The notes under the pieces: model-generated
Database searches by the model: none
Seen by the model: the letters and a program-made list of their open reading frames with translations, nothing else
Told to the model about the DNA's origin: nothing
Assembly: GCA_016795105.1 (NCBI GenBank)
Contig: JAEUIH010000012.1
Coordinates: 62,001-126,000 of the forward strand
Source: Planctomyces sp.
GTDB lineage: Bacteria; Planctomycetota; Planctomycetia; Planctomycetales; Planctomycetaceae
Length of the DNA stretch: 64,000 nucleotides
Direction of reading: 5' to 3'
Made by a program: the position numbers and the translations under genes
In this document: piece by piece, positions 4,047-18,009 of the stretch
How the letters are laid out: each line of letters starts with the position of its first letter
Numbering within the stretch: the stretch's first letter is position 1

Positions 4047-4094
4047 TCCACCAAACGACAGGGTGGATGGTCCACCAAACGACTGGGTGAGGCG
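4047..4094. repeat. 24-bp tandem duplication just before the pil-like operon
   Basis: The segment beginning TCCACCAAACGAC at 4047 recurs at 4071, giving two adjacent 24 bp units that match at 18 of the first 19 positions and diverge at the end. The second copy ends in GGTGAGG, the likely Shine-Dalgarno sequence of the first operon gene (ATG 4099). The first copy contains an in-frame GTG at 4063 that could extend the reading frame by 12 codons. Either a recent slippage duplication or paired operator sites would explain it. Confidence 0.6.
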
Positions 4095-4098
4095 AATT

Positions 4099-6459
4099 AT
4101 GGCGGAAGCAAAGAGTGCGTGGGGCATCGATATTGGTCAGGCCGGGTTGAAGGCGATTCGTCTTCGATCAACGGAAGACGGGCGAAAAGTCGTTGCCACA
4201 GCCTTTGACTATGTGCCTCATCCGAAGATTCTCAGCCAACCGGACGCGATTCCGGACGAGTTGATCAAGCAGGCGATTACAACGTTTCTTGAGCGGAACA
4301 AGATTGGTCGCGACCCAATTGCGATTAGCGTACCTGGGCAGACATCTCTGGCGAAGTTCATCAAGCTGCCGCCGGTGGAATCGAGCAAGATTTCTGAGAT
4401 TGTGAAGTACGAGGCTCGGCAGCAGATTCCATTCGACCTTGCCGATGTGATCTGGGACTACCAGCCCATCGGAGGCGGTGTTGAAGAAGGCGGCTTCATG
4501 CTGGAAGCAGAAGTCGGCCTGTTTGCAATGAAGCGGGACCTGGTCTATGAAGCCATGAAGCCATTCACTTCCAACAAGAAGGAAGTGGAGATCGTGCAGC
4601 TGGCACCTCTGGCTCTGTACAATTATCTCTCGTACGACGTGCTTGCATTTCGCAAGTCGGCCGAAGTTCCTGAACCGCCGGCCTCTGAAGATTACTATGT
4701 ATTGCTGGACATGGGGGCAGACAATACGACTCTGCTGGTTTCAAACGGCCGCAGTATCTGGATTCGAAACGTCCCAATCGGCGGCAATCATTTTACTCGC
4801 GCTTTGACTCGCGAGATGAAACTGACATTCGCAAAAGCCGAGCATCTGAAGTGTAACGCAACGAAGTCGCCGGATCCGAAAGCCGTGTTTCAGGCGATGC
4901 GTCCGGTGTTCAATGACTATGTGACGGAGATTCAGCGATCGATTGGATTCTTTGGCAGCGTGAATCGATCGGCGAAAATCAAGAAGTTAATTGGAATAGG
5001 AAATGGATTTCGTCTGGCAGGTCTGCAGAAGTTTCTGCAGCAGAATCTGCAATATGATGTCGAACGATTGGAAAGTCTGCACGGTGTGTCGGGCGATCCG
5101 GTGCTGACCGACCCGATCTTCATGGACAACATCATGACATTTGCTGTTCCTTATGGACTGGCACTTCAGGCCATTGGACAGACTCGGATCCGTACCACCT
5201 TGCTTCCTCCGGAAATTGCAATGGAACGAAAGATCCGAACGAAGAAGCCATGGGCAGTTGCCGCTGCCGCAGGAATGATGCTGACGATGGGAGTCAGCAC
5301 GATGGTCAGTGCGAATGTGCTTTCGTCAGTGAGCAAGGCCAAATGGGAAAAAGGCGAAGGAGCCGTGTCTCAGCTCACTTCTGCCATCAGCAGCAATGAC
5401 TCGGCGTATAAGAGCGAAGAGTCGACTCATCAGAAGGCAATCGACGACATTGCACAACTGGTTGCTCCGCTGGAGAAACGAGTCCTGTGGATGGAGATGT
5501 TGAAGGCTGTGAACGAGTGTCTTCCGCGGGATGAAGGCAATGAGCTTGATCAGACGGATCTTTCACTTCAGAAGAAGATCCGAATCGATTCGATTGCTGC
5601 CAAGAAAGTGGCAGACGTGGGAGAATGGCATAAAGCCATTGTTGATGGCGGGCTTGGCGAAGACTTCCAGGGAGATGATGCAGCGAACGCTCCAACAGGC
5701 GAAGGCTACATTGTGACTCTGCGAGGATTCCACCTGTACAACAACGATAAAGTTCCGTACGAAGAAAAGGGGCGACTGTTTACAGAGGCAACTCTGGGTG
5801 CGAATCTTCGGAAGTGGATCATGGACCGAAACGGTGTCCAGACACCTGTCGGCCAGATTGGCATTTCACATCCACTGGTTGTCTATTCAATGGAACGTCC
5901 CTACCAGCATAATCCGAATGCTCCGGCTGGACAGCAGATGACGTTTGGAGGTGGGGGCATTGGTGGAGCTCCGGGGATGGGGGCAGGGGCTGGAGCCGGA
6001 ATGGCCATGGGGTCTGGCATGGACCCGCGTGCGGGCGGCGGAGCGGGAGGTATCGGTGGCGCGCCGGGGATGGGAGCTGGCGGAGCCGGTATGCCCGGCG
6101 GTGCGCCTGGAATGGGTTCTGGCATGGATCCGCGTGCGGGCGGCGGTGGTGGAATTGGTGGAGCCCCCGGAATGGCTGGCGGAGGTGGACTACTGGGCGG
6201 TGCACCTGGAATGGGTGCTGGTGGTGGAGGACTGCTGGGAGGTGCCCCGGGAATGGGAGGAGCCGCAGGCGGTGCGGCCGCAGGCCAGCAGGGTGTGATG
6301 TTTGAAGAAGAACAGTTAAAGGAAATTCAGAACTACACAATGACGGAATTCGTTCTGCAGTTTGTGTGGAAGCCAACAAAAGAACGTGATCGCCTGGAGT
6401 CGCCGCCGGCGACTGCACCCGTCGACGGGGCAACAGAGAGTTCAGCCGCGACTCCCTGA
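4099..6459 (+). CDS. PilM-PilN fusion protein with Gly-rich tail (type IV pilus/T2SS-like inner-membrane assembly)
   Basis: In type IV pili PilM is a cytoplasmic actin-like ATPase that binds the N-terminal tail of membrane protein PilN. This 786-residue protein appears to contain both. Residues 1-350 show PilM features: WGIDIGQAGLKAIRL at the start, a segment ending EARQQIPFDLADVIWDY, YVLLDMGADNTTLLV and IGIGNGFRLAGL. Then TTLLPPE (LLPPE at 368-372) matches the conserved NLLP-type start of PilN, followed by a membrane helix (about 386-408) and a PilN-like helical segment with LEKRVLWMEMLKAV. Residues 618-731 are Gly/Met/Pro/Ala-rich with GGAPGM repeats; a short conserved-looking segment ends the protein. 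ATG 4099 is preferred over GTG 4063 because TGAGG precedes it at good spacing. First gene of a three-gene operon. Confidence 0.82.
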   Translation: MAEAKSAWGIDIGQAGLKAIRLRSTEDGRKVVATAFDYVPHPKILSQPDAIPDELIKQAITTFLERNKIGRDPIAISVPGQTSLAKFIKLPPVESSKISEIVKYEARQQIPFDLADVIWDYQPIGGGVEEGGFMLEAEVGLFAMKRDLVYEAMKPFTSNKKEVEIVQLAPLALYNYLSYDVLAFRKSAEVPEPPASEDYYVLLDMGADNTTLLVSNGRSIWIRNVPIGGNHFTRALTREMKLTFAKAEHLKCNATKSPDPKAVFQAMRPVFNDYVTEIQRSIGFFGSVNRSAKIKKLIGIGNGFRLAGLQKFLQQNLQYDVERLESLHGVSGDPVLTDPIFMDNIMTFAVPYGLALQAIGQTRIRTTLLPPEIAMERKIRTKKPWAVAAAAGMMLTMGVSTMVSANVLSSVSKAKWEKGEGAVSQLTSAISSNDSAYKSEESTHQKAIDDIAQLVAPLEKRVLWMEMLKAVNECLPRDEGNELDQTDLSLQKKIRIDSIAAKKVADVGEWHKAIVDGGLGEDFQGDDAANAPTGEGYIVTLRGFHLYNNDKVPYEEKGRLFTEATLGANLRKWIMDRNGVQTPVGQIGISHPLVVYSMERPYQHNPNAPAGQQMTFGGGGIGGAPGMGAGAGAGMAMGSGMDPRAGGGAGGIGGAPGMGAGGAGMPGGAPGMGSGMDPRAGGGGGIGGAPGMAGGGGLLGGAPGMGAGGGGLLGGAPGMGGAAGGAAAGQQGVMFEEEQLKEIQNYTMTEFVLQFVWKPTKERDRLESPPATAPVDGATESSAATP

Positions 6460-6587
6460 TTCCGTTTGGTCGCTGAGTGAAGTGTGTTTGGTTCTGCGTT
6501 TTTTATGATTTGCCATCTCGGTCCTGCTGATCACCGTTTGCCGTGTCATACCGCTGATGGAAGAGTTCATCGAAAAGGAACTGTGTC

Positions 6588-8594
6588 GTGGATAAACTTC
6601 AACCGATCCTGAAACAGAAGTACTGGATCTGCTTCGGTTTTGCATTGATCTTCGTGTTCACCGGCTGGTGGCTCGGCGGAAGTGCGATCGGGACGGAAAT
6701 TGAAGCCCGAAAGCAGGTCATTACAACGGCGTTCTCGACGGCATCTCAGGGGGCCGACAAGCCGAATCAGAAGTGGATTGAAGGTGCCAAGGCGCTGAAT
6801 CTAAAGGACAAGAAAGCCTTTGATGAATCCTCCCATAAGTTGTGGGAACGTCAGAAGGCCGCTCGAATCTGGCACCCGGAAGTCCAGAAAGAGATCGAGA
6901 AGATCCCATATTTCGGGAAGATTCCTCAACTGTCGACTCGAGCAAAATGGGCATCACTTTACGGTCGGCAATTTGATGAACTGCTGAAGATTGTAAAACC
7001 GTTTGAGATCAAAGATGGATCCGGTCTCGTGATTGTGAATCCGGCAAGAATCACGCACCGACCTTACAATTCCTGGGTTGCAAAACGACCCGTTTCAGAA
7101 GAGATCTGGAAGAATCAGGAAGACATCTGGTTGCTGAAGTGTTTGTTGACATCAATCGCGAATGTAAACGCAGATGCTCAGCGAATTACAGATGCATCCG
7201 TTCGTGAAATTGTGGCACTTCAGCTGCGTGGCGGTGATCCTGAAGCAAAACCAGGAGCAACATCGGCTGCCGGTGGATTCGGTGGAGGCGGCGGTCCGGC
7301 ATTCGGTGCTGCGGGCACTGGTGGTGGTGAAGGATCAGCTGGCGCAGCGTCAGGTATGTCTGGAGGCAATAGTGGTCCCTGGAAGTCGTTCGAAGGCGTC
7401 GTCGGCATGGACCTTTTGACCGAAGAATTTGGCTCTGCTGATGGAGCTGCCGCAGGTGGCGGTGGTGGCGGTCCCGAAGAGGGTGGAATGCTTGGTGGTG
7501 GTGGCGGCGGATTTGGCGCCGGCGGCATGACTCGAAGCGGGTTTGGCGGAGCTGGTGGTGCAGCTGCAGCAGAAGAGAAGGATCGCTATGTCCACGATGC
7601 TGAAGGCCTGCCTTATAAGACTCGGGCGTTCTTTCTCCATGTCAAAATACGTGAAGAACAGGTCGCAGAATTGCTGGCCTCGCTGACCGATTCAGACTTC
7701 CCGGTTCAGATTGTGCGAGTTGACCTGAGAACAAATGCAGGCAGCGGAACAACAGGAATGGGCGGCGGGCTCGGCGGTGGCCTGGCAGGCGGCGGTGTTG
7801 GTGGTGCTCCTGGCATGGGTGGCGGCGGTATCGGTGGCGCTCCCGGAATGGGTGGTGGCGGTATCGGTGGCGCACCAGGCATGGGAGGCGGTGGTATCGG
7901 CGGTGCTCCAGGAATGGGCGGCGGCGGTATCGGTGGTGCTCCAGGAATGGAATCGGGTGAAGAAGGTGGCATGCTGGGAGGCGGTGGACTGGGTCCCGAT
8001 GGTGGTAATCCATATGAAGGTTTTGGCGGCGCTCAGGAGAACATGACCGGACAGCAGGCAAGAGCGAACGCGATGTCTGATCCGTTCCTGATTGATCTCC
8101 GAGTTGCTGGCCTGATGACGCTGTATCAGACGGTTGAAGAAGTGGTATCACAGACAGAGACCGAAGCAGGTGCTGCTCAGGAAGCTGCAACGTCCGGAGG
8201 CGGCACGGTACCTGCTCCCGCAGAAGGTACAACAACAGAATCGGGCACGGCTCCACCAGCGGACGTTGCCCCGGCAACTGATGGAAGTACGCCAGTAACG
8301 GATGGAAGTACTCCGGCGACAGAGACAACCCCGATTGAAGGAGCAGCTCCCGCAGAAGGCACCGTGCCTCCAACGGGTACAGACTCAGGCACTGTGCCTC
8401 CGGCAGGCACAGACTCAGGCACTGTGCCTCCGGCAGGCACAGACTCAGGCACTGTGCCTCCGGCAGGCACAGATTCTGGGGCAGTGCCGCCGAGTGCAGG
8501 GGAGACATCCGGAACCCCAGCGACACCAGCCGACGGAGCCGGTTCGCCGACTCCGGCAGCCAGTGGCTCTGGAGAATCAGGCACATCGCCCTGA
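6588..8594 (+). CDS. PilO-like single-pass membrane protein with Gly-rich and Pro/Thr-rich repeats
   Basis: A 668-residue protein with a short cytoplasmic start, one membrane helix (about residues 14-32, ICFGFALIFVFTGWWLGG) and a charged helical region after it. This topology and its place directly after a PilM-PilN fusion suggest the PilO role in the pilus inner-membrane alignment complex; sequence similarity alone is weak. Two Gly-rich blocks (about 225-328 and 388-475) flank a short structured segment with TRAFFLHVKIREEQVAELLA, which resembles a small ferredoxin-like fold as in PilO. The tail (about 535-668) is Pro/Thr/Gly/Ser-rich with tandem GTVPPAGTDS units. GTG 6588 is chosen because AAAGGAA lies 7 nt upstream. 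Gap to the previous gene 128 bp. Confidence 0.6.
   Translation: MDKLQPILKQKYWICFGFALIFVFTGWWLGGSAIGTEIEARKQVITTAFSTASQGADKPNQKWIEGAKALNLKDKKAFDESSHKLWERQKAARIWHPEVQKEIEKIPYFGKIPQLSTRAKWASLYGRQFDELLKIVKPFEIKDGSGLVIVNPARITHRPYNSWVAKRPVSEEIWKNQEDIWLLKCLLTSIANVNADAQRITDASVREIVALQLRGGDPEAKPGATSAAGGFGGGGGPAFGAAGTGGGEGSAGAASGMSGGNSGPWKSFEGVVGMDLLTEEFGSADGAAAGGGGGGPEEGGMLGGGGGGFGAGGMTRSGFGGAGGAAAAEEKDRYVHDAEGLPYKTRAFFLHVKIREEQVAELLASLTDSDFPVQIVRVDLRTNAGSGTTGMGGGLGGGLAGGGVGGAPGMGGGGIGGAPGMGGGGIGGAPGMGGGGIGGAPGMGGGGIGGAPGMESGEEGGMLGGGGLGPDGGNPYEGFGGAQENMTGQQARANAMSDPFLIDLRVAGLMTLYQTVEEVVSQTETEAGAAQEAATSGGGTVPAPAEGTTTESGTAPPADVAPATDGSTPVTDGSTPATETTPIEGAAPAEGTVPPTGTDSGTVPPAGTDSGTVPPAGTDSGTVPPAGTDSGAVPPSAGETSGTPATPADGAGSPTPAASGSGESGTSP
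7786..7950 (+). repeat. 33-bp tandem repeats coding for GGGGIGGAPGM
   Basis: About five head-to-tail units of 33 bp inside the PilO-like gene, each encoding an 11-residue GGGGIGGAPGM unit (the first has V for I). Third-position changes between units (GGT/GGC, CCT/CCC/CCA) show the amino acid pattern is kept while the DNA drifts, so this is a protein-level repeat and not a very recent expansion. Confidence 0.85.
8361..8490 (+). repeat. 30-bp tandem repeats coding for GTVPPAGTDS
   Basis: Just over four units of 30 bp near the 3' end of the PilO-like gene. Units at 8391 and 8421 are identical, while the outer units (8361, 8451) carry substitutions. The encoded 10-residue Pro/Thr/Asp/Ser unit resembles an extended linker. 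Identical central copies point to recent slippage, so the copy number is likely to vary between strains. Confidence 0.85.
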
Positions 8595-8709
8595 CGTTCT
8601 GGAAAAATAAATTCAGTGGAGGCTCTGTCTGCAACACAGAAGACCTTCAACACGACAATTGCGAAGATGTTTGTTCCGAATGACCTGAGTGGATTCAGGA
8701 GCGTATGAA

Positions 8710-11235
8710 ATGAAGAAGATGAAGAGCCTCGATTTTAAAGCACTGCTGGTCAACCACGGTGAGAAGATTGGTGCCGTCGTTGTGGCTCTGCTTGGCGTCA
8801 TGGGACTGACATCCGCATATTGGCAGCCGGAAAGTCGAGTTGAAGAGCAACTCGCGAAGATCGCAACGGACACGAAGACCAAGATGGAGTCCAGTGTCTG
8901 GCCGGAAGAGAAGCGAAAAGTCTTCGAACAGACTCCGGACGTAGCCGAGTTGACTCATCAGATGTCGACACCACAGGAAGATGTCGCTCGATATTCGCCA
9001 TCGATCCCGTTCCGGGAGCCGATGCATGCGTTGAGAGAGAAACGATCGGCTCCGGTCATCCTTCCGCCGATATCGCCGGAATCGTCACTGGTGACAGTGC
9101 CACTGGCATTGATTCCGGAAGAGAAGGAAGAAGACTCAGACGCAGATTCAGCGGACCCGGACAAGAAGAATGACAAAGACACAGAGAGCGAAGAGGATCG
9201 CGAGCGTCGCGAGCGACTCGGGCAGGTCGCCGGTGGAGGAATCGGCGGCGATCTTGGCGGTGGACTCGGTGGAGGTCTCGGCGCGGGCGGTGGTCTTCTC
9301 GGTGGCGGCGGCGTTGGTGGTGCTCCTGGAATGGGCTCCGGAATGGATCCACGTGCCGGCGGTGCTGGTGGTGTCGGCGGACCTCCAGGAATGGGCGGCG
9401 GCCCGGGACTCGCTGGTGGAGGTCGCGGCAGTGATCCCCGCGGAGGCGGCGCTGGTGGTGGTCGCGGCAGTGATCCTCGCGGAGGCGGTGGCGGTCGCGG
9501 TGGAGCACCGGGCATGGGCGGCGCTCCTGGAATGGGTGGTGCGCCCGGCATGGGAGGTGCGCCCGGCATGGGTGGCGCACCTGGTATGGCTGGTGGTGGC
9601 ATCGGTGGCGCACCGGGCATGGACCCTCGAGGCGGTGGCGGTATGATGGGCGGCGGTGCCCTCGGCGATATGTTCGGAAACTACAGCGACTACAGCGGGA
9701 TGCTGGGAACTCAGGTTCAGGAGAAACGCATTCGATATGCGGCTGGCGTATCAGTTCGAATGCTGTTCGATCTCCGCGAACAACGGAAGAAGATTGCAGA
9801 AGCTCTGCATCTGAACCCAGGCGATCCTCGAGTTGCTAAGTACGCGGAAGACTTCTCCCAAATTCATATTGAGCGAAAGCAGGCTATTCCTGCAACCGAT
9901 CCATGGTCGGGGGAGTGGCAGCCGCTTCCAATCGAAGACCTTGAGGAATTCATGGAGGAGTCGCTTGGATTCGACCTTGAGATCGTAAATCCGATGGTGA
10001 CTCGTCCCGATATTACAATGCCACTTCCACGGCGAGTGATCGGACGCTGGGGAAAGAAGGAAGCGTCTCACAAGATGCTCGATGACTTTGTTCTGACTGC
10101 AGAAGAACAGGAACTGATTCGTAAACGTGACGAGAAACTGGCCAGGGAAGCCGAAGAACGCAAAGCGAAATTGCCTCCTACAAAGCAGAGGGGGGGGTTC
10201 GCAAATCTTAGAGGAAACGCCAGTGACTACATGAACAGCATGTACGGTCAAGGGCAGGGTCAGGATGAATTCTATAATGATCTCATCGATGACTATTCAG
10301 GAGAACTGGCCGCCAAAGACGGGGAAGACTCCGGCTCTGATGATTCGAAGAAGAAAAAGACAAAGCAGAAGCTGGAAGAAATGAAGAAGAGGCTGTTTTC
10401 GGCCGTGGACCGATTGCTGCTTGTTCGGTTTATTGACTTTACCGCAGAACGCGGTCAGCAATATATCTACAGAGTCCGCATTGAGATGTGGAATCCGAAC
10501 TTCAGGACGCCGGTCGATGAATTGGTAACTCCTGAACTCGCCGAACAACTCACGATCTTCTCAGACTGGAGTGTGGCAACTGCTCCGGTCACAGTACCAA
10601 TGGACTATCGCTACTATGTACAGAAGGTTACCGGACAGCCTGGAGCTGAAGAATCAGCTCACCTTGCAATCTACTACGAAGTGCCGGAACTCGGTACGCC
10701 AATTATGACTGACGTCACTGTTCCAATTGGACTTCGAATTGGAGGAGAGAAGGAAGTTGATGCGGTTGATCTTTCGAAGTCCGTGCTGGATAAGACAAAG
10801 ATCGACATCAGATCACGAGATTTGCTGTGTGCGGTGGTTGAGTCGCCAAAGATTACGGCGGGTGATCATCCGGATCTTCAGGCCATACTCAACAAGCTTC
10901 CTCGAGGAACAAAGGCAATTCCTGATCAGGTCACAGTGGTTGACTCCAGCGGCGCCATTGTTGTCCGTGCAACTCGTGATGCGGAATCTTCTCAGAAATA
11001 CGACTCTGGAGACGTTGCATTCCTCCTGAAGGAATACGAAAAGGCCGGATGGCGGAAAGGCGACACACCTGCCGAAGGTGATCCGTTTAATCTCTCTGGT
11101 GCCGATGGTGCAGCAGGTGCCGGTATGGGACTTGGAGCTGGTGGTGGCATGGGAATGGGGTTCGGCGATCCACTGGGTGGCGGCGGACGGAATTCGGGCC
11201 GCAACAAAGGTCGAGGTGGTCGCGGACCTCGTTAG
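8710..11235 (+). CDS. Third protein of the pil-like operon: single-pass membrane protein, acidic and Gly-rich linkers
   Basis: An 841-residue protein of unknown family. It has a short basic start, one membrane helix (about residues 20-38, IGAVVVALLGVMGLTSAYW), a helical stretch, and an acidic linker (EEKEEDSDADSADPDKKND). A long Gly-rich block follows (about 175-325) with GGAPGM and SDPRGGG repeats. The large C-terminal region (about 330-800) looks folded and includes RLLLVRFIDFTAERGQQYIY. A second Gly/Arg-rich tail ends GRGGRGPR. By position it could replace PilP or a periplasmic scaffold; I do not recognise a named domain. ATG 8710 is chosen over GTG 8689 because AGGAG (8697-8701) lies 8 nt upstream. 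The operon ends at a strong terminator 54 bp later. Confidence 0.72.
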   Translation: MKKMKSLDFKALLVNHGEKIGAVVVALLGVMGLTSAYWQPESRVEEQLAKIATDTKTKMESSVWPEEKRKVFEQTPDVAELTHQMSTPQEDVARYSPSIPFREPMHALREKRSAPVILPPISPESSLVTVPLALIPEEKEEDSDADSADPDKKNDKDTESEEDRERRERLGQVAGGGIGGDLGGGLGGGLGAGGGLLGGGGVGGAPGMGSGMDPRAGGAGGVGGPPGMGGGPGLAGGGRGSDPRGGGAGGGRGSDPRGGGGGRGGAPGMGGAPGMGGAPGMGGAPGMGGAPGMAGGGIGGAPGMDPRGGGGMMGGGALGDMFGNYSDYSGMLGTQVQEKRIRYAAGVSVRMLFDLREQRKKIAEALHLNPGDPRVAKYAEDFSQIHIERKQAIPATDPWSGEWQPLPIEDLEEFMEESLGFDLEIVNPMVTRPDITMPLPRRVIGRWGKKEASHKMLDDFVLTAEEQELIRKRDEKLAREAEERKAKLPPTKQRGGFANLRGNASDYMNSMYGQGQGQDEFYNDLIDDYSGELAAKDGEDSGSDDSKKKKTKQKLEEMKKRLFSAVDRLLLVRFIDFTAERGQQYIYRVRIEMWNPNFRTPVDELVTPELAEQLTIFSDWSVATAPVTVPMDYRYYVQKVTGQPGAEESAHLAIYYEVPELGTPIMTDVTVPIGLRIGGEKEVDAVDLSKSVLDKTKIDIRSRDLLCAVVESPKITAGDHPDLQAILNKLPRGTKAIPDQVTVVDSSGAIVVRATRDAESSQKYDSGDVAFLLKEYEKAGWRKGDTPAEGDPFNLSGADGAAGAGMGLGAGGGMGMGFGDPLGGGGRNSGRNKGRGGRGPR
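9500..9622 (+). repeat. 18-bp tandem repeats coding for GGAPGM
   Basis: A run of GGAPGM hexapeptides (five near-perfect 18 bp units, then a longer AGGGIGGAPGM unit) inside the third operon gene. The same hexapeptide occurs in both upstream genes, so the three proteins share one repeat vocabulary. Confidence 0.85.
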
Positions 11236-11289
11236 TATCTCGCAGGAATCCTCAGGAATTCCTCAACGAACAGTTGAAGTGATTTCTCT

Positions 11290-11327
11290 GCGGCTCAACT
11301 GGTGATCCAGTTGAGCCGCATTTTTGT
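11290..11327 (+). terminator. Rho-independent terminator of the pil-like operon
   Basis: A perfect 11 bp stem (GCGGCTCAACT at 11290-11300 pairing with AGTTGAGCCGC at 11309-11319), an 8 nt loop and then ATTTTTGTT. It lies 54 bp after the stop of the third operon gene and only 3 nt before the first possible start codon of the glycosyltransferase gene at 11331. Confidence 0.9.
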
Positions 11328-12719: not shown

Positions 12720-12783
12720 TCCTGCGTCCTGTAATGCGTGATCGCATTTTTCCTGAAGAACAACAGACCAGATTTTGTTTCGA

Positions 12784-15700
12784 ATGAGAGACTACACATT
12801 GGGTTCAGAACACGGAATGCCACATCGGGAATATCTGATCTCTGAAAGTCAGACGTCTGTTCAGGACATTATCGGAGCGATTACAGGTTCAATTCCGGAT
12901 GCGATGTTCCTCAAGGGTCGTGACGGGCGATACCGTTTTTGTAATGCAGCAGGCGCGGAGTACCTTGGGAAGTCGTTGAAGGAGATTATTGGCGCGACAG
13001 ATGATGAGTTGTTCGGGGCTGCGGCGGAAGCGGTTCTTGCGTCCGACCAGCTGGTGATGGAGTCCGGTACAGATCATTCTGAAGAAATTGTATCGCAGGA
13101 TCGTGGTGCACCGAGGATACTCCGCATCCATCGGTCACCGAATCGTCGCAACGATGGGTTGATCGACGGCGTCTTTTGTGCCGTGCGAGACGTTACCGAG
13201 CAACGTGAAGCTGAATCAGCAATTCGCAAACTTCTAATCGGAAGTTCACTGACGGGAAGCGATTATTTTCGATCGCTTGCCACAGTACTCTGCCATGTCT
13301 GCGAAACGGATTTCGTGTTCATTGGAGAAATGTCTGAGGGCGAAACAGAAGCTGTGCAGACACTTGTGGTTGCTCAGGGCGATGAATTGATCGGAAACTT
13401 TCGATTTGAGCTGAGTGAAACGCCCTGTGTGCAGGTCATTGAGAAGTCTTTCTATCACTTCCCGGAGCACGTCAGCACACTGTTTCCTCGAATTGAGTTA
13501 TTGAGGGAGCTTGGCATTGAGAGCTATATGGGAATTGCGCTGAAGGCGTCCGATGGAACGACGTCTGGCCTGATTGCCCTGTTGAACCGCAAACCGTTTT
13601 CGAACCCTGGGATGGCGGAGTCTCTGCTGCGAGTCATTGCATCCCGAGCAGCCGCAGAGCTGGAACGTGAGCGAGCGGAGCGGACGCTGAGGCGAAATCT
13701 TCAGGAACTAACGGTACTCAATCAGGTTGGGCGGGTCTGTTCTCAGGCAACAACTCTGGATGAGATTCTGCAGCAGACAACTCGTGTGATTACCGATTCG
13801 CTGTTTCCTGACAACTGCGGGTTCATGATTCTGAATGCGACAGAAGAGTGGCTTGTCCCGCATGATTCGTTTGTGGTTTCGGATGAAACTGTGACCACGC
13901 ATGTGGTGTTCTTCAATCAGGGCATCATCGGAAAGACATTTCAAACAGGCCGAGTGCATCGGCTGGATGATATTCGCAATGACACCGATTACGTCCAAAC
14001 AGACAGTCGTACGCGTTCTGAACTTTGTGTGCCAATTCGGGCGAATGGACGGATCGCAGGTGTACTGAATATTGAGAGCGCTGCTTTGGGCGCGTTCAGG
14101 GATACAGAAGAAAAGTTAGTGATTGCCGTCGTGGATCTTGTTGCCGCAGCCTGGGAGCGAGTAACTGCGTCAGAGAAACAGAAAAGCAGTGATCAGCTGT
14201 TTCATACGTTGGTCAATCAGGCAGCAGACGGGTTCTTCCTGCACGACCACAACGGACGATTTCTGGACGTCAATCAGCGTGCCTGCGAGACACTGGGATA
14301 CACACGAGAAGAGTTGCTGACAATGTCAGTATTCGATATTGCTCAGGACCTCGAATTCAGTGAATCCGATCGTTGGTGGGATCAGTTTACTCCCGGGGAA
14401 TACGTTACGAGGGAAGGAATTCATTGGCGAAAGAATGGTTCAACACTCCCTGTGGAAATTCGGGTCGGTTGCGTTGAAACATCCGGACAGCGGATGATTT
14501 TGGCGCTGGTTCGAGACATCACAGCTCGAAAAGAAGCAGAACGACTGTCGCGACTGATGCATTTCAGTATTGAGCGAGCGGTGGACCCGGTGTTCTGGGT
14601 CGCACCCGACTCCACAATTCTCTATGCCAACGACGCTGCCTGCCGAGTGCTCGGATATCACCGGGATGAACTCATCGGAAATACTGTCCCCGGGATCGAT
14701 CCAAATTTTCCGGCAGAAGCCTGGCCGGACCACTGGAACGACCTGAAGACACGAGGTGCCTTCAAGTTTGAATCAGATCATAGAACTAAGGACGGGAGTT
14801 CTATCCGGACGGAAGTTACGGTGAACTATCTGCAGTATGAAGGTGAAGAGTACAACTGTGCCGTGATGCGGGACATCACCGAACAAAACCGTGTCGCCGA
14901 ACGACTTCGGAGAAATGAGGAGCATCTGAGGCTTGCCATGGGGGCGGCGCCGCTCGGAACCTGGGATAGGAATCTGGAGACGGGCGAGACATACTGGTCT
15001 GAGAACCTCTGGGCGATTCTGGGACATTCGTCATGCGACACTGTTCTCACGTTTGAAACCTTTAAAGAGGTCATCCACCCGGACGATCTTGATCGCGTTT
15101 TGAATCACCTTGAGCAGTGTGTGATTAGTGGTGGCCCATTTCGAAGCGAATTTCGGATCATCCGGGCAGACGGATCGATTGGATGGATCCTTGAACACGG
15201 CCAGGTATTGCTGGACTCGAATGGTAAAGCAACCCGAATCGTTGGAGTCAGCCTTGATCTGACAGATCGGTATCACGCGGAACGGACTCTGAAGGACAGT
15301 GAACTCCGTTTCAGAACGCTGTTTGAACGTTGTGCCGACGCGATATTTCTGCTGGACTCCAAAGGCAGGGTCACGGCTGGCAATCCTGCTGCTGCAGTTA
15401 TGCACGGCTATTCAGAAGACGAATTGACGGGACTGACAATCAGTGAGTTAGATGCCCCTTCGTGCCACAACGAAATTCCTGATCGACTGGGTCGGCTTCT
15501 GAATGGCGAGACGCTGCGATTCGAAATCGACCATCGGAGAAAAGACGGGACAATTTTTCCGGTGGAAGTTGTAGCGAGTCTACTCGAACTGAACGGTGAA
15601 CCGCTTATTTTGGCATTTGATCGTGATATCACAGAACGCCGAGGAGCGGCAGACGCTCTTCGAAAGTCAGAAGAGCGATTCTCAAAACTCTTCTACTTCA

Positions 15701-18009
15701 GCCCATTCTCTATCATGGTCGCCTCGTATCCCGATGGCAGAATCCTTGAAGCGAATGATGCATTCCTCAGACTGCTCGAATTTGAGAGTCACGAAGTTGT
15801 TGGAAAAACCACAGTGGACCTTGGGATTTGGGAGAATCCAAACGATCGACTTGTCATGCTCGAGAGCCTTAAGACAACTTCACGTCTAATGAATGGAGAA
15901 TTCTGGTTCCGCACAGGCCGCGGAAATCGACGCCTGCTTCTGCTTTCCGTTGAGATCATCCGAATTGGCGAACAATCTATGTCACTGGCAATGTCAATCG
16001 ACATCACAGAGCGTCGCAGAGCGCAGGATTCTCTTCAGCAGTCTCTGGCCACACTGCGAGCAACTCTGGAAGCAACGGCCGACGGAATCCTTGTCGTGGA
16101 CCTGAATGGTCGAGCAATTGACTACAATCGACAGTTCCTCGAGCTTTGGAATGTCAACTCCGTCATCGAAGCCAAATCGTCGCGATCTACACAAGCAGTT
16201 AACGCTTCTGAAATGCAGCAATTCGCAGATGACATCGTGCAGAGGATGCAACAGCACTCGCTGGACCAGCCGGGGTTTCGGAATCGACTGAAAGAATTAT
16301 TTGATTCTCCCGAAGCGTCTACTTTTGATGTGTTGGAGTTTGACGATGGTCGAGTCATTGAACGATATTCCCAGCCACAGCGGATTGCTGGCATTCCGAC
16401 GGGGCGAGTATTCAGTTTTCGTGATGTGACTCGACGGCGACAGGCGGAAACATCCCTGAAGGAAACAGCGGCACTCCTTCAGGCAATTTCAGCAGGGACG
16501 ACTGATGCACTGTTTGTGAAAGACCTGAATGGAAAATACCTGATGTTCAACGAAGCTGCCTGTCGTTTTGTAGGAAAGCCGCTCGACAGCGTGCTCGGTC
16601 ATGATGATACAGATTTGTTTTCGCCGGACAGCGTTCGCTTGATCAGAGATCGAGACAATGCCGTCATCACCTCGGGCGAGACAATCACCGCGGAAGAAAC
16701 CATAACATCGGCAGGTGTCACCAGAACATATCTTGCGACAAAAGGACCGTACCGGGATCACAACGGAGATGTCGTTGGCGTCATCGGAATTTCACGCGAC
16801 ATCAGCGACCAAAAGAAGCTCGAAGAACGTATCCGTGAATCGCAGAAACTGGAAGCTGTTGGCGAACTTGCCGGAGGTGTCGCCCACGACTTTAATAACC
16901 TGCTGACGATCATTAACGGTTACTGTGATCTCCTGATGTCCCGCATACCAAACGAAGACCTGAGTTACCACTGGGTCTCTGAGATTCGAGACGCGGGACG
17001 TCGAGCAGCACAGGTGACGCAACAGTTACTGTCATTCAGTCGAAAGGCCGTGCATGCGCCACTGGTTCTGAATCTGAGTGCTTGTGTGGCGGAGTCAGAA
17101 CGGCTCCTGAGACGATTGATTGGAGAGCACATTCAGTTGATCGTCTCGACGGATCCGGCGGCAAGCCCTGTTCGTGCAGACAGCGGGCAGTTGGATCAGG
17201 TATTTATGAATCTTGCAATCAATGCACGAGATGCGATGCCGAACGGAGGCATTCTTCAGATTTCGACCAAACGAGTCACGGCCGAAGAAATCCGCCGCAT
17301 TTCGTTCCAGAACGTGCCCTCAGGTCACTATGCACAAATCACGTTTGCTGATTCCGGTCACGGAATTCCGCCAGAAGTGCTTTCCAGAGTCTTCGAACCG
17401 TTCTTCACCACCAAAGAAAAGGGGAAAGGCACTGGCCTCGGACTCGCAGTCGTCCATGGAATTATCCAGCAGAGCGGCGGATGGATCCACGTCGACAGCG
17501 AGCTCAGAATGGGTACAACGTTCTTTATCTGGCTGCCGATCGCAACCGCAGAGGTTGGCAACACCTCCACCGAAGGTCAGCGTTCGGTGAAGCTTCTGCA
17601 CTCCGGCACGATCCTCATCGTTGAAGATGAACCTGGAGTGCGTCAGATGATCCGAATCAGCCTGGAAGCCTGCGGTTATGACATTCTGGAGGCGGAAGAT
17701 CCAAATGACGCGATGGAGCTGCTGCGAGAACAGCCGTGTCAGATTGATCTGCTTGTGTCAGATATTGTCATGCCGGGGATGAACGGACTGGGACTCGCAT
17801 CGATTCTTCGGAAAGATCATCCTCGTTTGCCGGTTTTGTTCATGAGCGGTTACAACGAACTGGAGGCACAGGATGCTCCTGTAACCGATGATAACAATGG
17901 TTTCCTGCCAAAGCCGTTCTCACCCGATTCGCTGATCGAGATGTGTGACCGGCTCATCCAGAACAGTCGCACGAGGATGGGTGATGGAGCCGTGAGTTCG
18001 GATCGCTGA
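12784..18009 (+). CDS. Hybrid sensor histidine kinase with 8 PAS and 2 GAF domains and a receiver domain
   Basis: A 1741-residue cytosolic-looking kinase with no clear membrane helix. Order by eye: PAS (25-135), GAF (145-300), GAF (305-455), then seven PAS units (about 470-1345; start motifs include DGFFLHDHNGRFLDVN, DAIFLLDSKGRVTAGN and DGILVVDLNGRAIDYN). Next come HisKA with LAGGVAHDFNNLLT (phospho-acceptor His 1368), an ATPase domain with NLAINARDAMPNG and GKGTGLGLAVVHGI, and a C-terminal receiver with VEDEPG, LLVSDIVMPGMNG (Asp 1660) and the lysine of FLPKPFSP. It senses several unknown signals and may pass phosphate to its own receiver. ATG 12784 is chosen over TTG 12775. The last 90 bp overlap the convergent GT2-GtrA gene. 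Confidence 0.95.
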   Translation: MRDYTLGSEHGMPHREYLISESQTSVQDIIGAITGSIPDAMFLKGRDGRYRFCNAAGAEYLGKSLKEIIGATDDELFGAAAEAVLASDQLVMESGTDHSEEIVSQDRGAPRILRIHRSPNRRNDGLIDGVFCAVRDVTEQREAESAIRKLLIGSSLTGSDYFRSLATVLCHVCETDFVFIGEMSEGETEAVQTLVVAQGDELIGNFRFELSETPCVQVIEKSFYHFPEHVSTLFPRIELLRELGIESYMGIALKASDGTTSGLIALLNRKPFSNPGMAESLLRVIASRAAAELERERAERTLRRNLQELTVLNQVGRVCSQATTLDEILQQTTRVITDSLFPDNCGFMILNATEEWLVPHDSFVVSDETVTTHVVFFNQGIIGKTFQTGRVHRLDDIRNDTDYVQTDSRTRSELCVPIRANGRIAGVLNIESAALGAFRDTEEKLVIAVVDLVAAAWERVTASEKQKSSDQLFHTLVNQAADGFFLHDHNGRFLDVNQRACETLGYTREELLTMSVFDIAQDLEFSESDRWWDQFTPGEYVTREGIHWRKNGSTLPVEIRVGCVETSGQRMILALVRDITARKEAERLSRLMHFSIERAVDPVFWVAPDSTILYANDAACRVLGYHRDELIGNTVPGIDPNFPAEAWPDHWNDLKTRGAFKFESDHRTKDGSSIRTEVTVNYLQYEGEEYNCAVMRDITEQNRVAERLRRNEEHLRLAMGAAPLGTWDRNLETGETYWSENLWAILGHSSCDTVLTFETFKEVIHPDDLDRVLNHLEQCVISGGPFRSEFRIIRADGSIGWILEHGQVLLDSNGKATRIVGVSLDLTDRYHAERTLKDSELRFRTLFERCADAIFLLDSKGRVTAGNPAAAVMHGYSEDELTGLTISELDAPSCHNEIPDRLGRLLNGETLRFEIDHRRKDGTIFPVEVVASLLELNGEPLILAFDRDITERRGAADALRKSEERFSKLFYFSPFSIMVASYPDGRILEANDAFLRLLEFESHEVVGKTTVDLGIWENPNDRLVMLESLKTTSRLMNGEFWFRTGRGNRRLLLLSVEIIRIGEQSMSLAMSIDITERRRAQDSLQQSLATLRATLEATADGILVVDLNGRAIDYNRQFLELWNVNSVIEAKSSRSTQAVNASEMQQFADDIVQRMQQHSLDQPGFRNRLKELFDSPEASTFDVLEFDDGRVIERYSQPQRIAGIPTGRVFSFRDVTRRRQAETSLKETAALLQAISAGTTDALFVKDLNGKYLMFNEAACRFVGKPLDSVLGHDDTDLFSPDSVRLIRDRDNAVITSGETITAEETITSAGVTRTYLATKGPYRDHNGDVVGVIGISRDISDQKKLEERIRESQKLEAVGELAGGVAHDFNNLLTIINGYCDLLMSRIPNEDLSYHWVSEIRDAGRRAAQVTQQLLSFSRKAVHAPLVLNLSACVAESERLLRRLIGEHIQLIVSTDPAASPVRADSGQLDQVFMNLAINARDAMPNGGILQISTKRVTAEEIRRISFQNVPSGHYAQITFADSGHGIPPEVLSRVFEPFFTTKEKGKGTGLGLAVVHGIIQQSGGWIHVDSELRMGTTFFIWLPIATAEVGNTSTEGQRSVKLLHSGTILIVEDEPGVRQMIRISLEACGYDILEAEDPNDAMELLREQPCQIDLLVSDIVMPGMNGLGLASILRKDHPRLPVLFMSGYNELEAQDAPVTDDNNGFLPKPFSPDSLIEMCDRLIQNSRTRMGDGAVSSDR

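Follow-up and report, generated by a model that had tools for sequence, protein, structure and literature searches.

A planctomycete operon with a predicted PilM–PilN fusion corresponds to the MUL2 locus of Akkermansia

Introduction

In type II secretion systems (T2SS), PulL/GspL has been described as PilM and PilN in a single chain (PMC10191384), which sets a precedent for joining two proteins that are separate in the PilMNOP complex of type IV pili, whose biology underlies the mechanism that we propose below (PMC4471445). In Akkermansia muciniphila, the MUL2 locus has been described as attachment- or pilus-like (PMC13174399), and the mul genes, said to include ones for pili and periplasmic complexes, are needed for the accumulation of mucin products in internal compartments (PMC12418764). 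Planctomycetes carry crateriform structures, in which press-stud connections run from the outer to the cytoplasmic membrane and which bear dextran-binding fibres; genetic tools are available for Planctopirus limnophila (PMC5394234). Here we describe a three-gene operon within a 64,000-nt stretch of DNA from Planctomyces sp. (the window; contig JAEUIH010000012.1, positions 62,001 to 126,000) and compare it with these systems.

Operon layout

The operon consists of three co-directional genes, which lie, like all features of the operon given below, on the + strand. ORF1 (4099–6459, 786 aa) encodes the PilM–PilN fusion and starts at an ATG at 4099 that the family alignment favours over an upstream GTG at 4063. 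ORF2 (6588–8594, 668 aa) encodes a PilO-like single-pass membrane protein. ORF3 (8689–11235, 848 aa) encodes a single-pass membrane protein in the PilP/GspC position; its true start is likely the ATG at 8710, judging from relatives. A preliminary description of this DNA had outlined the same operon, and its coordinates and its account of the open reading frames, the PilM features, the LLPPE segment and the membrane helix were accurate. It had also placed a terminator at the operon's end, and we find there, 3′ of ORF3, an intrinsic terminator (11289–11325) with a perfect 14-bp hairpin stem followed by TTTTT at 11289–11320. No pilin, PilB, PilC or secretin gene adjoins the operon in the window.

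Long Gly/Met/Pro-rich inserts are common to all three proteins (encoded at 5944–6288, 7240–8010 and 9230–9650), with units GGIGGAPGM and MDPRAGG. The insert of ORF1, made of GGIGGAPGM units, lies 5′ of the last conserved strand and varies in length among relatives. Very similar Gly-rich units (75–84% identity) occur in an open reading frame, possibly of a lipoprotein, on contig C40 of the assembly (L131, 1564–4812); we rejected this match as a fourth component, the likeness being a low-complexity similarity with a Gly-rich protein. Downstream of the operon, positions 12775–18009 hold a 1,744-aa frame that, by eye, looks like a sensor histidine kinase with multiple PAS/GAF domains and a receiver.

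ORF1 joins PilM to PilN

The first part of ORF1 is a predicted cytoplasmic, actin-like PilM domain (residues 9–357; 4123–5169). It scores 96 bits against the Pfam family PilM_2 (PF11104, cutoff 27) over these residues and 137 bits against the NCBIfam pilM model TIGR01175 (cutoff 133) over residues 6–357, and phmmer relates it to the solved PilM structures 3jc8, 2ych and 5eox. The model NF045709, 'Amuc_1101 family PilM-like pilus complex protein', extends over residues 1–478 with 212.6 bits (E = 1.3e-62), a score that lies below its 650-bit equivalog cutoff and so places ORF1 as homologous to that family and outside the equivalog.

Directly beyond the PilM domain, the segment TTLLPPE (residues 366–372; 5194–5214) corresponds to the former N terminus of PilN with its INLLP motif; less derived orthologues have INLLPxE at the junction, which is PilN's own N-terminal signature. 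A hydropathy peak just after the junction motif marks a transmembrane helix (residues about 385–405; 5251–5313), which leads into a periplasmic PilN-like region (residues about 406–600; 5314–5898) recognized by hhalign and by comparison of an orthologue profile with Myxococcus xanthus PilN. Beyond the Gly-rich insert, the protein retains a conserved terminal strand, EFVLQFVW (6346–6369), in which the F, F and W columns are invariant in 21 family members. The succession of a PilM end, an [I/T]NLLP-type motif and a membrane helix about 20 residues on recurs across 20 members of the window's family, 38 loci outside it and Akkermansia, with the junction motif kept in all 20 family members, in Akkermansia and in most of the 38 other loci, a few of which have no clean motif.

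Three sets of profile comparisons characterize the joined parts. First, a full-length profile of 13 planctomycete fusions and Amuc_1101 matches M. xanthus PilM at positions 1–339 (E = 6.4e-64) and residues 3–205 of PilN at positions 346–514 (E = 7.8e-8), these two proteins being separate chains of one solved machine (3JC8); the fusion profile also aligns through INLLP with 5EOU, a chimeric PilM/PilN chain from Pseudomonas aeruginosa, with a nearly identical linker. Second, when a profile is built from planctomycete C-terminal regions only, M. xanthus PilN ranks first among PDB sequences (1.7e-5), aligned from PilN residue 2, and PilN stays the top PDB match at 5.9e-9 when Amuc_1101 and more planctomycetes are added. 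Third, in profile–profile comparison with hhalign, the C-terminal part of ORF1 matches planctomycete PilN best (P = 1.1e-6), followed by PilO (1.7e-4), GspL (6e-4) and GspM (4e-3).

The window ORF1 by itself has no Pfam PilN match, a Pfam scan of 23 C-terminal regions returned a single weak PilN match (E = 0.023), and AlphaFold prediction of residues 354–786, from an alignment of the window and Akkermansia sequences only, gave a mean pLDDT of 35. The PilM and PilN profile matches, the junction motif and the separate pilM and pilN genes found elsewhere (below) strongly support the earlier proposal of a PilM–PilN fusion within an inner-membrane alignment complex; at the level of sequence, ORF1 is confirmed as a real fusion of the two proteins.

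ORF2 and ORF3

ORF2 has an N-terminal transmembrane helix, Gly-rich inserts and a Pro-rich tail. When its family was compared with four platform models, PilO was best (P = 2.5e-4), the match lying in the periplasmic part at PilO model columns 141–183. Amuc_1100 independently matches PilO columns 144–199 (P = 8.3e-4), and ORF2 relatives align to Amuc_1100 collinearly, if weakly (P = 0.0016). Neither Pfam nor the PDB gave a significant match for ORF2, its profile finds neither PilO nor Amuc_1100 in the PDB when Akkermansia is left out, and AlphaFold, again with window and Akkermansia sequences only in the alignment, gave a mean pLDDT of 38. Its position 3′ of ORF1 and a profile match that is weak but specific make ORF2 a probable, rather than a proven, PilO-like protein.

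ORF3 was initially described as an unrecognised single-pass protein, and it remains one, with an N-terminal transmembrane helix and no significant family match. The window protein matches nothing in Pfam, fn3 included, and sequence searches of Pfam and the PDB found no PilP/GspC or HR-domain match. Nor did these comparisons reveal direct homology to PilP or to Amuc_1099, with which ORF3 shares no significant similarity. Among the 15 members of the ORF3 alignment, 3 contain PF00041 fn3 (best E = 1.9e-7), and a pattern common to ORF3 relatives, Y.YRV...NP...WS...VP, is kept in the window protein as a degenerate fibronectin-III-like block (residues about 575–640; 10411–10608). From gene position we infer a PilP-like role. 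In one relative (L070, 240–3182), the ORF3 frame runs on into a sulfatase-modifying factor domain (Pfam FGE-sulfatase, 4.2e-43).

Conservation across Planctomycetota

ORF1 is present in 112 of the 120 genomes of the window's family and in 92 of the 94 of good quality, a frequency at which the gene is not a chance occurrence. Twenty family neighbourhoods have an ORF2 homologue as the next gene without exception and ORF3 in 19, the remaining one being at a contig end. An apparent natural split of ORF1 in one genome (G087) was rejected as a contig break.

Beyond the family, a phylum-wide search with the ORF1 profile found matches at E ≤ 1e-12 in 282/294 genomes (269/280 good ones), an upper bound for the fused form because GspL-like proteins and canonical PilM pass at this threshold too. 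By our reading of the search table, about 160 genomes have a match stronger than 1e-60, and all 38 loci inspected in this stronger group are fused-length open frames. Sixteen loci of weaker families comprise 5 of fused length (4 with a clear INLLP junction and 1 without) and 11 with separate pilM and pilN. The order ORF1–ORF2–ORF3 is conserved in other planctomycetes: across the 38 loci outside the family, ORF2 lies directly 3′ of ORF1 in every case (median gap, 23 bp) and ORF3 lies 3′ of ORF2 in 35 (median gap, 60 bp). Viral contigs scanned for relatives contained none.

The preliminary description had called this operon the best candidate for an undescribed system. That does not hold: the NCBIfam Amuc_1101 family already covers residues 1–478 of ORF1, and the genes are collinear with those of Akkermansia MUL2. 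As the same arrangement extends across much of the phylum and to Akkermansia, the machine is a known one in a widespread variant form and not an unknown one.

One complete genome of two contigs (G143, family f9) is without ORF1, and three congeners have it. This genome keeps PilT-like ATPases and five secretins, long ones among them; inheritance of the complex is therefore not strictly tied to theirs. Co-occurrence of ORF1 with PilT is itself uninformative because PilT is found in almost every genome tested.

Secretin and unlinked partners

The earlier statement that no secretin is adjacent is correct for the window. A secretin matching Amuc_1098 is the next or nearly next gene in 15 of the 38 distant loci, and the matching secretin of the window's own genome is unlinked. 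The one operon-linked secretin that was scanned has TPR repeats. Of the secretins in the window genome, a 1,473-aa protein on contig C210 is most closely related to the operon-linked ones (304 bits in comparison with the secretin of locus L082). Those on C326, C321, C77 and C122 are less close, and this comparison shows the C210 secretin to be the operon's predicted partner. With a secretin adjoining in 15/38 loci and a matching one elsewhere in its own genome, the operon is not an isolated system. Contig C391 carries PilB-type and PilT-type ATPases, a PilC/GspF-type platform protein and N-methylated pilin-like genes.

In several planctomycete lineages (L100, L106, L107, L114, L117 and L103), two proteins come after the secretin, one large (about 950–1,115 aa) and one smaller (about 345–400 aa); Pfam identifies both L107 proteins as TPR proteins. 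These proteins are candidates for extra components of the machine.

We consider it likely that the operon encodes the inner-membrane platform of a trans-envelope machine of the type-IV-filament class, with PilM and PilN fused and with the secretin, motor and pilins encoded elsewhere. It is possible, though unlikely, that the complex neither builds a pilus nor secretes, and that pilus platform parts without a motor form a structural envelope-spanning connector or a glycan-uptake device. Such a function would fit the inspected loci, in which no motor or pilin gene is linked to the fused gene, the requirement for Akkermansia MUL genes in mucin product accumulation (PMC12418764) and the TPR proteins 3′ of the secretin in several other lineages. 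However, gene dispersal is common in the phylum, the genome has PilB-, PilT- and PilC-type genes (C391), PilM normally recruits such ATPases, and one locus (L164) has pilin-like genes 3′ of the secretin.

Unfused relatives and T2SS-type proteins

Seven other planctomycete families have pilM (340–407 aa) and pilN as adjacent separate genes, in 11 loci (L156–L162 and L165–L168). At the eight loci with a clear pilN start, pilN encodes 203–246 aa and begins 4–25 bp after pilM; seven of these proteins start with a MIxxNLLP-like sequence and the eighth with MITVNLIP. 3′ of pilN come an approximately 470-aa protein with an N-terminal hydrophobic stretch and then a short (about 600–660 aa) secretin. 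This operon appears to be either the unfused form of the window system or its sister. Several planctomycete genomes (for example G038 and L144) have a canonical cluster of separate pilM, pilN and pilO with pilB-, pilT- and pilC-like genes nearby. T2SS-like clusters (L146, L147, L148 and L151) contain a GspL-like fused protein of about 490–540 aa beside GspG–K-type pseudopilin genes, with a related junction, ID[IL]TPEE. The window genome holds a second PilM-like gene, of the GspL-like fused form (484 aa; contig C177, L124 7479–10893), and the protein encoded after it (615 aa) has putative Ig and Rib domains; the two make an odd pair of T2SS type.

Trees of the PilM part unite the window type with Akkermansia in one group (support 88/82, or 86/73 with the unfused loci; 88–90% of bootstrap trees), which excludes both the canonical PilM and the GspL-like proteins of planctomycetes; the adjacent, unfused genes group separately (100/99). 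Because the tree has no root and its deep forks are moderately supported, one fusion event is favoured rather than proven. Given the related junction in planctomycete T2SS proteins, the T2SS fusion and the window fusion are either parallel solutions or of older common origin.

These results bear on the alternative in which ORF1 would be the GspL of a T2SS and the operon no more than one piece of that secretion system, which we regard as improbable. GspL shares the PilM-plus-PilN architecture of ORF1 (PMC10191384), and planctomycete GspL-like proteins of about 490–540 aa with a related junction do exist, but those proteins, beside their pseudopilin genes, constitute a separate clade, and the window genome has its own, separate GspL-like gene on C177. 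Further, ORF1 exceeds the PilM subfamily cutoff, has no T2SSL family match and no linkage to GspC–K or pseudopilin genes, and its C-terminal part is closer to PilN than to planctomycete GspL (P = 1.1e-6 versus 6e-4). That ORF1 is instead a plain PilM with an unrelated, non-PilN membrane anchor is largely refuted and very improbable: it would explain the lack of a Pfam PilN match in the window protein, the one weak match among 23 C-terminal regions (E = 0.023) and the lack of a usable AlphaFold fold, but PilN is the top PDB match of the C-terminal profile from PilN residue 2 onwards, the INLLP junction is conserved, and separate pilM and pilN occupy the matching position in other planctomycete families.

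Discussion

As an inner-membrane platform with fused PilM and PilN, the complex could work as follows. In ORF1, an actin-like PilM domain in the cytoplasm would be continuous with the membrane helix of PilN and its periplasmic domain, and the former PilN N terminus (INLLP), now internal, could dock in the PilM groove of its own or a neighbouring chain. With INLLP kept inside one chain, the non-covalent PilM:PilN contact would have become covalent and PilM would be unable to leave PilN; that the motif is kept at all suggests that contact at the groove is still of consequence. The role of the PilM domain would be to recruit an extension/retraction ATPase, and the PilN part would contact pilins and pair with ORF2 as a PilO-like subunit. 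ORF3, anchored in the inner membrane, would take the role of PilP/GspC and extend towards the secretin of the outer membrane. The secretin would be supplied from C210 (1,473 aa), and the ATPases, platform protein and pilins from other loci (for example C391). The docking of INLLP in the fused chain, the ATPase and pilins served and the output, surface attachment and/or glycan capture, are what we infer from these comparisons.

In our trees, the lineage in which PilM and PilN became one chain is separate from planctomycete T2SS GspL, and this covalent chain would offer a direct handle on whether pilus dynamics need the release of PilM from PilN. The platform encoded by Akkermansia MUL2 belongs to a machine conserved across much of Planctomycetota. 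Its Amuc_1100 is widely studied as a host-active protein. The operon and its partners also make a concrete candidate gene set for the envelope-spanning structures and glycan-binding fibres of planctomycetes. A link of MUL2 and the crateriform structures to the window operon is plausible. More doubtful is the specific proposal that the PilM–PilN fusion, ORF2, ORF3 and the secretin are the envelope-spanning core of crateriform structures and, with MUL2, a PVC-wide glycan-capture machine distinct from type IVa pili (T4aP) and T2SS. Among the open-licence papers searched, none describes Amuc_1101 as fused to PilN, and none mentions a PilM–PilN fusion in PVC bacteria, an absence that counts only weakly for novelty.

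Comparison with known systems

A man-made counterpart of ORF1 is the P. aeruginosa chain 5EOU, a PilM ending in INLLP to which the natural fusion profile aligns end to end; 5EOU stops after a short PilN peptide, whereas ORF1 is natural and continues into a transmembrane helix and a periplasmic domain.

In T2SS, GspL is likewise a PilM–PilN fusion and GspC likewise a single-pass transmembrane protein. ORF1, by contrast, is a member of the PilM subfamily, stands on a branch of its own relative to the GspL-like proteins of planctomycetes and has no linked pseudopilins. The PilMNOP(Q) systems of T4aP (M. xanthus 3JC8, Thermus thermophilus and P. aeruginosa) share PilM and PilN with the operon by sequence homology, probably PilO, and a secretin partner. 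They differ in that the operon has PilM and PilN in one chain and a membrane-anchored ORF3 with an fn3-like block in place of a recognisable PilP, and in that pilin and motor genes, rather than clustering with the window operon, are found at other loci (C391).

Akkermansia MUL2 (Amuc_1101-1100-1099-1098) differs from the planctomycete loci in that no Amuc_1102-like protein was recognised in the latter, the window proteins have long Gly-rich inserts, the secretin, downstream of the operon in Akkermansia, is unlinked in the window genome, and ORF3 and Amuc_1099 have no demonstrable homology. The likeness is in the gene order, which is the same, and in the first protein: Amuc_1101 is, like ORF1, a PilM–PilN fusion, its own junction reading NI[N/D]LEP and preceding a transmembrane helix, and the C-terminal regions of ORF1 relatives and Amuc_1101 are homologous (P = 3.6e-7). 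Judged by this order and homology, the window operon is the planctomycete form of Akkermansia MUL2.
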